Virus record (IMG/VR): IMGVR_UViG_3300032322_002298
Span: 1 to 40,061 of that record
DNA: 40,061 nt
Source of the DNA: a virus
Reading direction: 5' to 3' (one strand)
Part shown: positions 5,029-35,692 of the stretch, piece by piece
How the letters are laid out: each line of letters starts with the position of its first letter
Position numbering within the stretch: the first letter of the stretch is position 1
Notes under the pieces: generated by a model
Database searches by the model: none
The model's input: the letters and a program-made list of their open reading frames with translations, nothing else
What the model was told of the DNA's origin: nothing
Program-made: the position numbers and the translations under genes

Positions 5029-5098
5029 TTCGACGTCTCGACCTTCGGCGGGACGATCGGTCAAAGAACGAACGAACGAACGACACGGAGATTCAAAC

Positions 5099-6424
5099 AT
5101 GAGTATTCAGGAACTTCGAGAGAAGCGGGCGCAGATGATCGCGGACGCCCGAAAGATCCTCGACAAGGCACAGACGGAAAAGCGGTCGCTGTCGGCGGAC
5201 GAGTCCGGCAAGGCGGACGAGATCCTCGACGGCGCGGAGAACGTCGCGAAGCAGATCTCGGAGATGGAGGGCGCGGAGGCGCGGTCCCGTCGTCTCGAAG
5301 ACGCGGAGAAGGGTCTCGCGGAGACCCGGACCCGTCCGGCTCCGGGTCGCGGCCCGGCTCCGACCGAGACTCGCGAGACCCGGTCCGAGCAGACGTGGAA
5401 GACCCTCGGCGGCGCGGAGCGGCGGTTCGTCTTCGATCCGTCGAAGGACCGTCGCTCGACCGCGGAGTATCGCAGCGCGTTCGAGAACTACCTCGTCTCC
5501 GGACGGGCGAAGGGTCTCGACACGGGCGGCGAGACTCGCGATCTCGCGGCGGACTCCGACGTCGACGGCGGCTATCTCGTCGCTCCGACTCAGACCGTCG
5601 CGTCGCTGATTCAGGCGGTCGACGACGCGGTCGTCGTGCGGCAGTTCGCGACGGTGATCCCCGTCCGTTCCGCGCAGAACCTCGGCGTCCCCGTTCTCGA
5701 CACTGACGTCTCGGACGCGGATTGGACGACCGAGATCCAGACCGGCACGAAGGACACGGCGATGAAGTTCGGCAAGCGCGAACTGAACCCGGTCCCCCTC
5801 GCGAAGCGGATCCTCGTCTCGCGGAAACTCCTCCGGACCGGCGCGCTTCCCGTCGAGTCGATCGTTCAGGCGCGGCTCGCGTACAAGTTCGGCGTCTCAC
5901 AGGAGAAGGCGTTCCTCACGGGCAGCGGCGCGAACGAACCCCTCGGAATGCTGACCCCGACCGCGAACGGGATCTCGACCTCTCGCGACGTGAACACCGG
6001 CTCGTCTACCGATATGACCGCGGACGGTCTTATCGACGCGAAGTTCTATCTCAAGGCGTCCTACTGGTCGCGTCCGTCGACGGCGTGGCTCTTCTCTCGC
6101 GAGGCGATCAAGCGCGTCCGCAAACTCAAGGACAACCAGAACCAGTACCTGTGGCAACCCGGCCTCGTCGCTGGCGAACCCGACCGGATTCTTGATATCC
6201 CGTACGTCGTCTCGGAGTTCGTCCCGAACACCTTCACGACCGGGAAGTACGTCGGCATCCTCGGCGACATGTCCTTCTACTGGATCGCGGAGGCGTTGTC
6301 CCTCGAAGTCCAGCGGCTCTCGGAACTCTACGCGGAGGCGAACCAAATCGGCTACATCGGTCGAATGGAAGTCGACGCGATGCCGGTCCTCGAAGAGGCG
6401 TTCGCGCGTCTCAAGACGAACTGA
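5099..6424 (+). CDS. Major capsid protein (HK97 fold)
   Basis: This 441-residue protein builds the icosahedral shell. Residues 1-95 form an acidic/basic helical delta domain (RAQMIADARKILDKAQTEKRSLSADE) expected to act as internal scaffold and be removed by the protease. A Pro/Arg/Thr-rich stretch follows (about 75-100), then the shell domain with DGGYLVAPTQTVASLIQAVDDAVVVRQFATVIPV, NPVPLAKRILVSRKLLR, EKAFLTGSGANEPLGML and the C-terminal MSFYWIAEALSLEVQRLSELYAE. Length and motifs fit the phage_capsid HK97 family. It has its own leader: stop of the protease, a hairpin, then GGAGATTCAAAC before the ATG, consistent with high expression. Confidence 0.97.
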   Translation: MSIQELREKRAQMIADARKILDKAQTEKRSLSADESGKADEILDGAENVAKQISEMEGAEARSRRLEDAEKGLAETRTRPAPGRGPAPTETRETRSEQTWKTLGGAERRFVFDPSKDRRSTAEYRSAFENYLVSGRAKGLDTGGETRDLAADSDVDGGYLVAPTQTVASLIQAVDDAVVVRQFATVIPVRSAQNLGVPVLDTDVSDADWTTEIQTGTKDTAMKFGKRELNPVPLAKRILVSRKLLRTGALPVESIVQARLAYKFGVSQEKAFLTGSGANEPLGMLTPTANGISTSRDVNTGSSTDMTADGLIDAKFYLKASYWSRPSTAWLFSREAIKRVRKLKDNQNQYLWQPGLVAGEPDRILDIPYVVSEFVPNTFTTGKYVGILGDMSFYWIAEALSLEVQRLSELYAEANQIGYIGRMEVDAMPVLEEAFARLKTN

Positions 6425-8356: not shown

Positions 8357-8766
8357 TCGAAAAGATAATCCGGAAGTGGATCGTCGCGAAGGGGACGGGC
8401 GCGGGCGATCGCGTCTTTCCCGTCGTCGCTCCTCAGGACGTGGACCAGTTCCCGATCGTCGTCCTCGAACGGATCTCGACGGATCGTCCGCACTCACACA
8501 CACAACGCTCCTCCGGTCTCGCGGTCGCGAGGATCCAGATCCGAACGTGGGCGAAGACCTATATTGAGGCGAAGCAGGTCGACGAGGAAATCCGGATGAC
8601 GATCGACGGTCGCGTCGGGAAGGACACGATCGACTCGCGGGACTTCGATGTTCAGGCCATTCTCGCGACGGACGATCGCGACGACTACGACGAGGACCTC
8701 CGTTGTTACGGTACGTTGTTCGACGTTCTCGTTTGGTATGACGAAGAGATCCCGGAGACGCTCTAA
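8353..8766 (+). CDS. Tail terminator protein (DUF3168-like)
   Basis: This 137-residue protein occupies the tail terminator slot and shows features of the DUF3168 group: [65 protein letters not shown] and the C-terminal [15 protein letters not shown]. Tail terminators stop tube polymerisation and join tail to head. The ATG overlaps the previous stop (ATGA) and its own TAA overlaps the next ATG (TAATG). Confidence 0.85.
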
Positions 8767-9749
8767 TGTCCATTCAGGCGACGATTCAGATTCGGCGAGG
8801 GACCGCGGCGGAGTGGACGGCGTCGAACCCCGTTCTCGCTCCCGGGGAGATGGGATACGAGACGGACACTCGGCGGAACAAGTTCGGAGACGGCGTGACC
8901 AATTGGAACTCGTTGTCCTACGGGATCGCGGGATCGACGGGTCCGGCGGGCTCGACGGGTCCGACCGGGGCGACGGGTCCGACCGGGGCGACCGGCTCGA
9001 CGGGTCCGGCAGGCGCGACGGGTCCGGCGGGCGCGACGGGTCCGGCGGGCGCGAACGGCGCGACCGGCTCGACGGGTCCGACCGGGGCGACGGGTCCGGC
9101 GGGCTCGACGGGTCCGGCGGGCGCGAACGGCGCGACCGGGGCGACGGGTCCGACCGGGACGACGGGTCCGACCGGGGCGACGGGTCCGACCGGGGCGACG
9201 GGTCCGACCGGGGCGACGGGTCCGACCGGATTCAACTACGTTCCGATCGTCAAACCGGTGGCGAACGAATGGCTTTGGGGTCCGGTCGGCTCGGAGTACG
9301 TCTCGCTTGCGACCGGAACCGGATTCATGAGATGCCGACCGATCTTCATTCCGGAGACTCAAACGTACACCGGAATTTCGACCTACGTCGACGCGGCGGG
9401 CGCAACCGGCGCGGTCGTTCGTCTCGGCATTTACGACGCAGACTCTTCCGGAAAACCCGTGAATCTCGTTCTCGACGCGGGGACGATCTCCTCGACGACT
9501 ACCGGCGTCAAGACGATCACGATCTCTCAATCTCTGACGGCGGGAAAGTATTTCCTCACGGCGGTCTCGCAGACGGCACAATGCAACCTCCTCGCGGAGG
9601 TCGGAGTTCATACCTACGCGCACACTTCTTTCCCATTTTGGCACGCGAACATTTGGGAACTTAGCGGAATAACGGGCGGTCTCCCCGCGACGTGGACGAC
9701 CTACGGAACGTTGCGCTCGACGTCCTTTCGCGTCCTTCTCAGGCGTTGA
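8766..9749 (+). CDS. Collagen-like fibre protein with Mtd-type N-terminal domain
   Basis: This 327-residue protein has three parts. Residues 5-52 ([26 protein letters not shown]..., [15 protein letters not shown]) match the small N-terminal domain of major tropism determinant-like and other phage fibres. Residues 56-155 are about 33 Gly-X-Y triplets, mostly GAT/GPT/GPA, expected to form a collagen-like triple helix. Residues 156-327 are a beta-rich C-terminal domain, less GC-biased in codon use than its neighbours. It probably forms a trimeric fibre or head fibre that touches the host or environment. Its location between tail terminator and tail tube genes, not in the tip region, would also suit a head fibre. 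Confidence 0.85.
8931..9228 (+). repeat. 9-bp-periodic collagen-like repeat
   Basis: Nine-base units encoding Gly-X-Y (GGTCCGACCGGGGCGAC-type) repeat about 33 times without interruption. On the minus strand the same repeat gives an artefactual Pro/Val/Ala reading frame (8918-9235), which I do not count as a gene. High internal identity suggests length variation by recombination. Confidence 0.9.
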
Positions 9750-28169: not shown

Positions 28170-28400
28170 ATGGCGAAGAAGAAGCAAAGTAAGGCGGGAA
28201 GTATCAGGGAGGCGATCCGTGTCGAGGTCGCGAACCGGAACCTCTCGGGGTATCGACTCGTCAAGATGCTGGACGGGCAAGTATCCCGGACGGCGATCTA
28301 TCGGTTCCTCGCGGGCGACGGCGCGTCGACGGACGTCGCGACCGCGGAGAAGTTCCTCGAAGTCCTCGACCTCCGGGTCGTCTCGAACAGGTCGAACTAA
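28170..28400 (+). CDS. Small HTH DNA-binding protein (Cro/C1-like)
   Basis: The 76-residue basic protein has a lysine-rich start and a helix-turn-helix region: SIREAIRVEVANRNLSGYRLVKMLDGQVSRTAIYRFLAGDGASTDVATAEKFLEVLDLRVV. NLSGYRLVKML-x-VSRTAIYRFLAG fits helices 2-3 of the lambda repressor-like fold, and the end TAEKFLEVLDL is typical of the family. SD AAGGAG lies upstream of ATG 28170. It probably represses early promoters or its own gene via the palindrome at 28139-28152; that link is inferred. No larger CI-type repressor is present. Confidence 0.85.
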   Translation: MAKKKQSKAGSIREAIRVEVANRNLSGYRLVKMLDGQVSRTAIYRFLAGDGASTDVATAEKFLEVLDLRVVSNRSN

Positions 28401-31729: not shown

Positions 31730-33640
31730 ATGACGAACAAGACGTCGGACGCGGCGCGGCATCTTCGCGCGACCTTTGGGAACCTCGACGAGGACTTCCG
31801 GTTCCTCGTCTGTAGTCGGCGGGACTTCTCCGGGAAGTGGTTCGGCGACGTCGACGCGGCGTCCCGGTTCGCGGAGGTCGAGTCGTCGTCGTCCGACGTC
31901 TACCTTGGCGTGGCGGTCCGTCGCGCCGACCGGCTCCCGGCTCGCGGGGCGCGGGGATCGGCGGAGACCGTCGACGGGATCCCCGGTCTCTGGCTTGACG
32001 TCGACGTCGCGGGACCGGCTCACGCGAAGAAGGGTCTCCCGACCTCGTTCGACGCGGCTCGGAGGTTCGTCGCGGACGTCCTCCCGACGTTTCCTCCCTC
32101 GCTCGTCGTCTTCACGGGGCACGGTCTACAGGCGTGGTGGCTCTTCCCGGAGGTCTGGACGTTCGACACGGACGCGGAACGGGCGGACGCGAAGCGGTTC
32201 CTCGCGAGGTTCGCGGCAACGGTCCGGGCGGTCGCGAACCGATCGAAGATCGTGGTCGACCCGGTCTTCGACCTCGCGAGGGTCTTCCGTCTCGCGGGGA
32301 CGTGGAACCGGAAGACGGATCCCCCGGTCGCGACGATCCTCGAAACGGGCGGCGAGGAGGGGAACCTCCGGCGATGGGATCGCGACGACCTCGACGCGGC
32401 GTTCGTTCTCGACGACGAGGTCGAGACCGGACCCGGGAAGGGGATCGCGGTCGACGGACTCGTCCTCGACGAGACGCGGCGACCTCCGGAGGACGCGCTC
32501 CTCGCGATGGTCGCGAACGACGAGAAGATCCGCGCGACGTGGGAACGTCGGCGGACGGACCTCCGAGACACGTCGGCGAGTTCCTACGACTTCGCGCTCG
32601 CGATCTTCGCGGCGCGGGCGGGGTGGCGCGATCAGGAGATCGCGGACCTCCTCGTCGCGTGGCGCGTGAAGCACGGCGAACCCCTGAAGACCTCGAAGTC
32701 CGGGCGGACGATTCGGTTCGACTACTACGCGCGGACGATCAGGGCGGCACGGGCGGCGATCGCGGACGAACGAGACGAAAAGGCATACGAGGACGAGGAC
32801 GAGGTCCCTCTCGTCGTCGACGGGAGTCCGGTCGACTTGTCGGCGCGGGCGAAGATCCTCGAAAAGGCGAGGGGCGTCTTCGGTCTCCCGATCGTTCGGT
32901 TCGTCCAAAACGGCGAGGAGGAGGACGCGCGGTTTTCGTTCGTTCTCGCGGACGGTCGGTTCGTTCAACTCGGCGGCGGCGGCGACCTCGAAGATCAGCG
33001 GCGGATGCGGGGTCGGATCTATCCGGTGATCCGGAGGTTCCCGAAGTCCCTGAAACCGAAGGCGTGGTCGCGACTTTGGGAAGAACTCGGCGCGGTGTGC
33101 GAGACGATCGCGAACGAGGAGTCGGGGAGGGAGGGTCGCTTCGCGGCTCTCCTGTATGAGTACCTCTCGGAGAAGACGGGCGCGGTCTCGTCGTCGATCC
33201 GGTCGGCGGCGAACTGGAAGGACTCGGTCCCGACCGGCGACCCGTTCGTTCGCGACGGGCGGCTCTTCGTTTGCGTGACGTCGATCGAATCGTTCGCGAG
33301 GACGGTCTTCCCGCGGAAGACCGAGACCCGGGAGATCTGGTCCGTCCTCGGGGAGTGGGGATTCGAGAACTCGACCGTGAAGGTCCGGCAGGGCGGTCGG
33401 GAGATCGGTCGGAAGTACTGGTCGATCCCGGTCGACGACCTCGCGGAGCGGAAGGGCGTCTCGGTCCCCGTGGCCTACCTCGGGGCGACTGGCGGAGAAT
33501 CGGCTAGGACGGGCGGAGACGAGGGGGGGGGTACTGACGGAGGGGGTCCCCCCCTCGGACGCGGCGGAGAGGATCGTCGGGCGGTTTCCGGGGAGATGGC
33601 GGACCCGTTCGGGGACGACTTCGGCGGGATCGGAGGGTAA
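31730..33640 (+). CDS. DNA primase, archaeo-eukaryotic primase (AEP) fold
   Basis: This 636-residue protein has an N-terminal AEP (RepB/prim-pol type) catalytic domain: GLWLDVDVAG with the metal-binding Asp90/Asp92, FTGHGLQAWWLF (129-139), the third acidic element VVDPVFD, and RVFRLAGTWNRK (184-195). Residues 285-345 are helical (PriCT-like: SSYDFALAIFAARAGWRDQEIADLLVAWRVKHGE). The C-terminal half has no Walker A or B motif, so it carries no helicase; a winged-helix-like region and a Gly-rich tail (GGDEGGGTDGGGPPLGRGG) end the protein. It would prime phage DNA synthesis, probably at the adjacent iteron region. Confidence 0.9.
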   Translation: MTNKTSDAARHLRATFGNLDEDFRFLVCSRRDFSGKWFGDVDAASRFAEVESSSSDVYLGVAVRRADRLPARGARGSAETVDGIPGLWLDVDVAGPAHAKKGLPTSFDAARRFVADVLPTFPPSLVVFTGHGLQAWWLFPEVWTFDTDAERADAKRFLARFAATVRAVANRSKIVVDPVFDLARVFRLAGTWNRKTDPPVATILETGGEEGNLRRWDRDDLDAAFVLDDEVETGPGKGIAVDGLVLDETRRPPEDALLAMVANDEKIRATWERRRTDLRDTSASSYDFALAIFAARAGWRDQEIADLLVAWRVKHGEPLKTSKSGRTIRFDYYARTIRAARAAIADERDEKAYEDEDEVPLVVDGSPVDLSARAKILEKARGVFGLPIVRFVQNGEEEDARFSFVLADGRFVQLGGGGDLEDQRRMRGRIYPVIRRFPKSLKPKAWSRLWEELGAVCETIANEESGREGRFAALLYEYLSEKTGAVSSSIRSAANWKDSVPTGDPFVRDGRLFVCVTSIESFARTVFPRKTETREIWSVLGEWGFENSTVKVRQGGREIGRKYWSIPVDDLAERKGVSVPVAYLGATGGESARTGGDEGGGTDGGGPPLGRGGEDRRAVSGEMADPFGDDFGGIGG

Positions 33641-33643
33641 CTT

Positions 33644-33895
33644 GGGAACGGCACCCCCACAATGGGAACGGGTGGGAACGGGTGAACCGTTCCCGGATAA
33701 ACCTCACGGCGACAACGGTTTGGAGTGGGTGGGAACGGCGGAACGGTCGCGCGCCCGCGTGCGCGTGCGCGCCGACGAGACAACCGTTCCCCTGTTCCCA
33801 TGCTGGTCTAAGTGTTTGCGGCATCACGCGATAGCGCGGGAACGGCTCTCCGAAAAGTGCCGTTCCCAACCGTTCCCGCCGTTCCCATGGAACGG
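33644..33895. other. Iteron-like putative replication origin
   Basis: The octamer GGGAACGG or its complement occurs exactly ten times: plus at 33644, 33664, 33674, 33731, 33838; minus (CCGTTCCC) at 33687, 33784, 33860, 33870, 33879. Three more copies have one mismatch (33739, 33792, 33888). The 279-bp gap between primase and helicase genes has no plausible gene. An alternating GCGCGCCCGCGTGCGCGTGCGCGCC-like tract (about 33749-33772) and a less GC-rich stretch (33802-33830) lie between repeat clusters. Repeats of this type next to a primase are a normal sign of an origin. Confidence 0.75.
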
Positions 33896-33919
33896 ACACC
33901 GAACGAGGAGGGTAGGTTC

Positions 33920-35692
33920 GTGACTTATTCGGGATGGTACGGGATCATCGGACCCCCCGGAACGGGCAAGACGACGTTCCTCTCGCGGCAGGTTCGGCGG
34001 ATCGTCGAGACGACCGGGACGACGCGCGTCCTCGTCTCGTCGCTCACGCGGACGGCGGCGGCGGAGATCGCGGGTCGCGACCTCCCTCTTCCCCGTGGCG
34101 CGGTCGGGACCCTTCACGCTCACGCTTTTCGGTCGCTCGAACGTCCGGAGATCTTCGCGGACGATCACGTCGCGACGTGGAACGACCGGCGACCGGAGTT
34201 CGCGGTCTCGGGCGGCACGGCGAAGACGCGGGACGGCGAACTCTCCGCGGAACCGATCGCGGACGCGGTCGACGCGGGCGAACGTCCCGGAGACCGATAC
34301 CTCGCGACGTGGGATCTCGTCCGGGCGAGGCGACTCTCGCTCGACGTCGTCGCGGAGAACCCCGGCTCGAAGGTCTTCGGGCGGTCGGACGTTCTCGCGA
34401 GGGACCTCGCGAGGTTCGTCGACGAGTTCGAGACGTGGAAGACGGACGAGGGTCTTCACGACTTCACGGATCTAATCTCGTCGGCGAGGGGTCTCCCTCC
34501 TCCCGGCGATCCCGAGGTCCTCGTCGTCGACGAGGTTCAGGACCTCTCCTCGCTCGAATGGGACCTCGTTCGGACGTGGGCGGACGGGCGAACCCTCTTC
34601 GCGGTCGGCGACCCGTGGCAGTCGCTCTATGCGTGGCGCGGGGCGGACCCGTCGCTCTTCGACGAGTTCCCGGACGAACGGCTCCGGATCCTCTCGCGGT
34701 CGTGGCGCGTCCCTCGGCGGATCGTCGAGACGGGTCTTCGGTGGATGCGGGGACGGTCGAACGTGCGTCGCGAGATCCGATATCTCCCGAGGGTCGACGA
34801 CCGCGGAGTCCCGGTCGACGGGTCGATCGACTTCGACCCGGGGACGACTCCGTCTCGCGTGGCGGCGATCGTCGATCGGGTCGAGGAGTCGATTCGCGAG
34901 GGGCGAACGTCGATGATTCAGGCGACCGCGGGGTATCTCCTCGGTCCGGTCCTCTCCGCGCTCCGGTCTCGCGGGATCCCCTTCGCGAATCCGTGGCGGA
35001 TCCGTCGCGGGGACTGGAACCCTTTGTCGTCGCGAGGCGTCTCGACCGCGGAACGGTTCTCCGCGCTCGTCGCTCCGGCGTTCTCCGGGCGGCTCTGGAC
35101 GTGGCGGGATCTCTCGAAGTGGATCGACCTCCTCGTCGCGAAGGACGTTCTCCGGCATGGGGCGAAGGAGACGATCCTCGCGAAGTCGACCGAACGTCTC
35201 GCGGACTTCCCGGTCGCGTCCGCGGAGATCCGCGGTCTCTTCCGTGACGAGTCCGCGGTCGCTCTCGGCGAGTCGATGACGGGGCGCGGCGACTGGAGGT
35301 CGGCGGTCCGTGACGCGCACCAGTGGATCATCCCTCGACTCTCGCGGAGGACGGTCGGGACGTCGATCGTCTTTGCGAGGGCGATCCTCGAACGGTTCGG
35401 GGTCGGCGGTCTTCGCGATCGTCCGAAGGTCTTCGTCGGGACGGTTCACTCTTTCAAGGGCGCGGAGGCGGACGACGTTCACCTCTTCTCGGAACTCTCC
35501 GGGGCGGCGGTCGACGGGATCCGTGGCGGGCACGACGTCGAGGAGACGATCGCGGCGGTCCATCGGACCTTCTACGTCGGGATGACCCGGGCGCGGTCGC
35601 GGCTCTTTGTTCACGGGACGTCTTCTCGGCGGGACTCGTCGATCTACGACGTCCTTCGGAAGATCCGGAACGCGGCGATCCCGATCGCGTGA
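33920..35692 (+). CDS. UvrD/Rep-like SF1 DNA helicase
   Basis: GTG 33920 is preferred: GAGGAGGGTAGGTTC lies before it, and earlier in-frame starts (33812, 33887) would place coding sequence across the repeats. The 590-residue enzyme shows motif I IIGPPGTGKTTF (9-20), Ia VLVSSLTRTAAAEI, motif II VLVVDEVQDLS (200-210), motif III FAVGDPWQSLYAWRGAD (227-243), motif IV-V region VGTVHSFKGAEADDVHLF and motif VI FYVGMTRARSRLFVHG. This set defines the UvrD/PcrA class, 3'-5' translocases. It probably supplies fork unwinding because the primase lacks a helicase domain. Confidence 0.95.
   Translation: MTYSGWYGIIGPPGTGKTTFLSRQVRRIVETTGTTRVLVSSLTRTAAAEIAGRDLPLPRGAVGTLHAHAFRSLERPEIFADDHVATWNDRRPEFAVSGGTAKTRDGELSAEPIADAVDAGERPGDRYLATWDLVRARRLSLDVVAENPGSKVFGRSDVLARDLARFVDEFETWKTDEGLHDFTDLISSARGLPPPGDPEVLVVDEVQDLSSLEWDLVRTWADGRTLFAVGDPWQSLYAWRGADPSLFDEFPDERLRILSRSWRVPRRIVETGLRWMRGRSNVRREIRYLPRVDDRGVPVDGSIDFDPGTTPSRVAAIVDRVEESIREGRTSMIQATAGYLLGPVLSALRSRGIPFANPWRIRRGDWNPLSSRGVSTAERFSALVAPAFSGRLWTWRDLSKWIDLLVAKDVLRHGAKETILAKSTERLADFPVASAEIRGLFRDESAVALGESMTGRGDWRSAVRDAHQWIIPRLSRRTVGTSIVFARAILERFGVGGLRDRPKVFVGTVHSFKGAEADDVHLFSELSGAAVDGIRGGHDVEETIAAVHRTFYVGMTRARSRLFVHGTSSRRDSSIYDVLRKIRNAAIPIA

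Follow-up and report, generated by a model that had tools for sequence, protein, structure and literature searches.

A gap between a primase gene and a helicase gene that is crowded with copies of one octamer raises two questions, whether it is the place where the virus starts to replicate its DNA and, if so, which protein reads the repeats. The window, by which we mean the whole stretch of DNA analyzed here, is 40,061 bases long (positions 1 to 40,061 of IMG/VR virus record IMGVR_UViG_3300032322_002298). The original prediction was that ten exact copies of GGGAACGG in both orientations, lying within 33644-33895 together with three one-mismatch copies and an alternating GC tract, mark a likely replication origin inside a 252-bp non-coding gap. 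All of these elements are present (Table 1), and so is the described orientation bias, the exact copies running + + + - + in the left half and - + - - - in the right half. The spacing between primase and helicase also stands, and its size is refined: with the primase stop at 33640 and the helicase start at 33920, the gap measures 279 bp. This GTG is the most likely helicase start, favored because of a ribosome-binding site (GAGGAGG, ~33906-33912) and the alignment with the start in the nearest relative, locus L001; an ATG at 33887 is possible. Nearby genes encode an SNF2-like helicase, a ParB-like protein and methyltransferases.

The density of the array, which had been called far above chance, is borne out by the counts. 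Thirteen exact copies of GGGAACGG are scattered over the other 39.8 kb of the record, a rate that gives 0.08 expected copies per 252 bp, while ten are observed (Poisson P ~4e-18). Across 2000 dinucleotide shuffles of the gap, no octamer reached more than 3 copies. An equal repeat density elsewhere would have spoken against an origin here, and no second array of this kind was found within the 40-kb record, whose sole other dense repeat (8935-9229) encodes a collagen-like protein. That protein (8766-9749) is built of Gly-X-Y repeats, its gene being repetitive in units of 18 and 72 bp, and it probably belongs to the virion surface or a fibre. An iteron-type origin is expected to have short repeats clustered well above chance, and the array begins only 4 bp past the stop of a gene whose product may itself be the initiator. 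The intergenic region is very probably an iteron-type replication origin.

Table 1. Coordinates of the features of the putative origin and its flanking genes in the window.
Feature	Position	Strand	Remarks
AEP-type primase, 636 aa	31730..33640	+	phrog_2478 E=2e-17
Primase C-terminal module, residues 365-585, predicted origin-binding domain	32822..33484	+	AlphaFold mean pLDDT 88.9; stand-alone in Thermus/Meiothermus phages
Predicted wing, residues 546-567, proposed specificity determinant	33365..33430	+	model strand order; low conservation
Intergenic origin region (predicted)	33641..33919	.	279 bp
Iteron 1 GGGAACGG	33644..33651	+	
Iteron 2 GGGAACGG	33664..33671	+	
Iteron 3 GGGAACGG	33674..33681	+	10 bp after iteron 2
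Iteron 4 GGGAACGG	33687..33694	-	
Iteron 5 GGGAACGG	33731..33738	+	
One-mismatch iteron CGGAACGG	33739..33746	+	
Alternating GC tract	33746..33778	.	similar tract mid-array in L001 (~5827-5858)
Relatively AT-rich segment inside array, possible melting site	33774..33833	.	45% AT over 60 bp vs 34% mean
Iteron 6 GGGAACGG	33784..33791	-	
One-mismatch iteron GGGAACAG	33792..33799	-	
Iteron 7 GGGAACGG	33838..33845	+	
Iteron 8 GGGAACGG	33860..33867	-	
Iteron 9 GGGAACGG	33870..33877	-	10 bp after iteron 8
Iteron 10 GGGAACGG	33879..33886	-	9 bp after iteron 9
One-mismatch iteron TGGAACGG	33888..33895	+	
UvrD-like SF1 helicase	33920..35692	+	PF00580 E=3e-19; phrog_1967 E=2e-40; 52% identical to L001

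The AT-rich segment is weak as a signal, as ~3.7% of the record's 60-bp windows reach the same AT content. Cumulative GC skew, which had been proposed as a check, has no turn at the array and is uninformative in this record because nearly all genes lie on the + strand. A single strand of the gap folds much better than its shuffles (z = -4.8), forming a long hairpin largely because the left-hand + copies pair with the right-hand - copies. Rfam and tRNA scans of the window gave no match, and the primase-array-helicase region, searched as DNA against phages, gave none either. Alternating GC (purine-pyrimidine) tracts are found within the gap or close to it in three relatives, namely the window, L001 and L021 (~5855-5905).

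The protein encoded upstream of the array is a primase with an AEP domain (~residues 1-228), a helical domain (~245-355) and a predicted C-terminal DNA-binding module running from 365 to about 580-585. The AEP motifs DxD, sxH and D are represented by D90/D92, H131 and D177, all invariant in 16 relatives, and the fold matches PrimPol of S-2L (6zp9, E=1e-6) and RepB' (3h25, E=2e-5) in Foldseek. No helicase domain was recognized in this primase with Pfam or NCBIfam; D5_N/DUF5906 was not found in it (P0001) and is present in the cluster-K primase P0005. A primase search of bacterial and archaeal genomes confirmed no relative. In a high-confidence AlphaFold model, the C-terminal module follows the alpha-beta-alpha-alpha-beta-beta order of a winged helix. 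Foldseek of the module against the PDB gave no confident match to a solved winged helix, and against viral models it matches other phage primases. Calmodulin chains, which make up most PDB sequence matches of the C-terminal profile, were judged spurious (best E 5e-4, ~50 residues). Between the window and L001, the predicted wing is the least conserved region of the primase (45% vs 57-71% elsewhere), and it is likewise the least conserved part in the pair L008/L013, which fits the expectation for a changing specificity.

The same layout recurs with unrelated repeat words beside related primases, which supports the reading as an origin. In L001, with the same gene order, a primase 59% identical and a helicase 52% identical, the 307-bp gap is filled with 12 copies of a different octamer, GGAAGCGC, in both orientations, together with its GC tract. 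The array word is AACCGCGCC in L018, CGCGCAAC in L019, CCTCGTCC in L026, AGTCAGAG in L146, GGATAAC in L128, and ATTAAATG or ATTAAAC in L004-L013. Cultured phages have further words, including ATCTGTNC in cluster K, CCAGCAAAC in Gordonia phage DelRio, CCGTCATA in TM4, AGGGACAT in Fionnbharth and GGTAGTCAG in Thermus phage Riverbug. The distance between neighboring repeats on the same strand is mostly 8-11 bp. When 70 primase clusters were compared, the primase 3' end was the site of 20 out of 25 strong arrays (score of at least 8) vs ~3 expected, with a word that differed by family. This enrichment is indicative only, because the interval of -450..+650 around the primase stop was picked after viewing the data. 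Sixteen non-redundant loci of the window's family have a real primase-UvrD gap, and in 10 of them one octamer is denser in the gap than in 95% of equal stretches of the same locus. Both gap and array are absent from about half of the related primase-UvrD pairs, including L092, L093, L094, L095, L099, L100, L114, L116, L120 and L123.

The question of which protein reads the repeats can be approached in the cluster-K mycobacteriophages, where 32 primases were compared with iterons of the classes TC, GC, AC, AG and CC after ATCTGT. The variable bases track primase residues 838-852, whereas prediction from the rest of the protein is correct at only ~0.41. Iteron class is predicted at 0.84-0.91 from residues 841-848 vs 0.38-0.47 from residues 1-780, and the best-predicting 8-residue windows across the whole primase start at 838-845. 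Class is nearly unrelated to the tree of residues 1-780, requiring ~12 changes vs a shuffled-label mean of 14. Among disjoint close pairs, residue 842, 845 or 848 has changed in 10 of 10 pairs of different class vs 2 of 11 of the same class. The primases of L051 and L054 are 98.5% identical; of their 14 differences, six lie within 841-848 and another at 865, and the iteron goes from TC to GC. The aligned iterons of L064 and L074 carry the same base change. A possible code at the variable base would pair A at 842 with G, and V at 842 with T or A, S at 845 with A, and V at 848 with G. These patterns suggest that the cluster-K primase reads the repeat word, its tail changing in step with the word. 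The covariation is strong, yet not proof of direct readout, since recombination that exchanges the primase 3' end and the array as one cassette could also give this linkage.

Profile comparison of the window and cluster-K C-termini gives a weak match in the right register (hhalign P ~0.01, probability ~3-4%), so the covariation carries over to the window through analogous position and fold order, not through proven homology. Within cluster K (L043-L074), ATCTGTNN iteron arrays lie behind the primase/helicase gene, at 0 to +300 of the primase stop. The start-associated sequences GGGATAGGAGCCC of these phages (PMC3203893) were set aside as a different repeat type. No report of iterons beside such primases in mycobacteriophages was found in the open-access literature.

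Additionally, the C-terminal module exists on its own. In Meiothermus phage MMP7 and Thermus phage Riverbug it forms a separate protein without AEP (E ~1e-41 to 1e-42), and the repeats sit at the 3' end of this stand-alone gene, before UvrD. The two genes (L033 3935-4729 in MMP7; L034 3932-4903 in Riverbug) bear the public names 'hypothetical' and 'primase', which miss their identity. Riverbug has a second dense array ~3.8 kb downstream (L034 8685-8824), with eight copies of GTTCACCA nearly all on one strand. The suggestion that the primase may bind the iterons directly thus gains comparative support, from the cluster-K covariation and from a C-terminal domain that is followed by an array even when it stands alone. 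An iteron-type origin with the primase C-terminal domain as its initiator is probable, although we hold it less firmly than the origin itself.

The proposed origin would consist of two opposed sets of 8-bp iterons, separated by a GC-alternating stretch and a mildly AT-rich one. Through its putative C-terminal winged-helix domain, the primase encoded upstream would bind the iterons, co-operatively where copies are about one helical turn apart. As for the order of events, we infer that the bound primase complex opens or bends the origin DNA, that the neighboring UvrD-like helicase then unwinds it, and that priming by the AEP domain begins at this site. Every lineage would keep its own matched pair of wing and repeat word.

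Other explanations of the array must be weighed against this mechanism. The repeats may be single-strand template priming sites read by the AEP and helical domains rather than duplex iterons, much as the NrS-1 polymerase needs the 8-nt template word TTTGGTTA (PMC7102993, PMC8718748) and the CCPol of SCCmec primes at iterons (PMC7581432). We consider this unlikely, since ten copies with an 8-11 bp pitch in both orientations resemble co-operative duplex sites, the cluster-K covariation sits at the far C-terminus and not in the AEP or helical domain, and arrays follow the stand-alone module where AEP is missing. It is similarly improbable that another binder of the array starts replication, be it the UvrD helicase, a small HTH-like protein (28170-28400) or a host factor. 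UvrD does adjoin the array in many relatives, and the small HTH-like ORF, judged by eye, lies upstream in the replication module; however, the cluster-K array has no UvrD match beside it, the repeat changes together with the primase C-terminus, and a host factor would leave the lineage-specific words unexplained.

The array immediately precedes the helicase gene and extends into its start region, as a transcriptional operator of the helicase operon would. That it is such an operator and not an origin is very unlikely, given that the arrays of cluster K, L018, L019 and L026 are found at the primase 3' end or within it, with unrelated genes as neighbors, and that the pRN1 and PICI origins in the equivalent position function in replication (PMC4234260, PMC6092414).

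If an iteron origin read by the primase is the correct reading, the origin is located in the window phage and in several cultured groups, none of which has one recorded in the literature that could be searched; among them are the cluster-K mycobacteriophages (TM4, Anaya), Meiothermus phage MMP7 and Thermus phage Riverbug. It would also put a name to the DNA-reading domain, and the wing-to-repeat code would be testable on natural variants. A broader claim is possible, and we hold it with some doubt: there may be a widespread type of phage origin whose iteron-binding initiator is an AEP primase lacking an AAA+/SF3 helicase, with a few wing residues and the repeat word co-changing by a readable code, so that lineages diverge into mutually incompatible replicons. 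Cluster K, with an SF3-type helicase in its primase, would show this code directly.

Among known systems, the PICI/SaPI elements have their origin directly 3' of the gene for the initiator, and two sets of iterons flank its AT-rich core. This organization is said to be common to no other known replicon (PMC6092414), and the SaPI Rep reads the origin via its C-terminal domain (PMC7581432). The window shares the 3' position beside a candidate initiator gene, the two opposed sets of short iterons and an element-specific iteron; its AT-rich core is weak (45% vs 34%). In PICI the iterons are bound by an initiator helicase (Rep), which in some cases is fused to a primase, whereas the candidate of the window is an AEP primase without a recognized helicase domain, accompanied by an SF1 UvrD-like helicase in a tailed-phage gene set. 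The replicon pRN1 has an essential, validated origin in the same place, 3' of orf904; the published description is of a stem-loop that lacks iterons (PMC4234260). This stem-loop (L156 ~5080-5185) contains TGTCCA four times as ++-- with a 9-bp pitch, which is an inverted iteron pair; were our reading true, stem-loop origins of the pRN1 type would be explained as such pairs. ORF904 resembles the window primase as an AEP protein whose gene is closely followed, on the 3' side, by an origin region; its C-terminal winged helix has a predicted counterpart in the window primase, and it differs in its fused SF3 helicase. The alpha protein of phage P4 also carries an SF3 helicase in the same chain, a domain not found in the window primase, and it is a Toprim rather than an AEP primase. 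Priming and an origin-repeat-binding winged helix are united in this one protein (PMC4234260). The NrS-1 PrimPol is likewise an AEP enzyme with an 8-nt word as its proposed origin mark, present in two copies on opposite strands of the genome (PMC7102993, PMC8718748). It differs in having two copies only, a word for priming on the template strand and a helicase-like C-terminal region. The window resembles PICI/SaPI, pRN1 and NrS-1 and coincides fully with none of them, having no SF3 or Rep helicase and many iterons instead of two priming words. On our best reading, the proposed origin would work like the origins of PICI and P4, but without an AAA+/SF3 initiator helicase.
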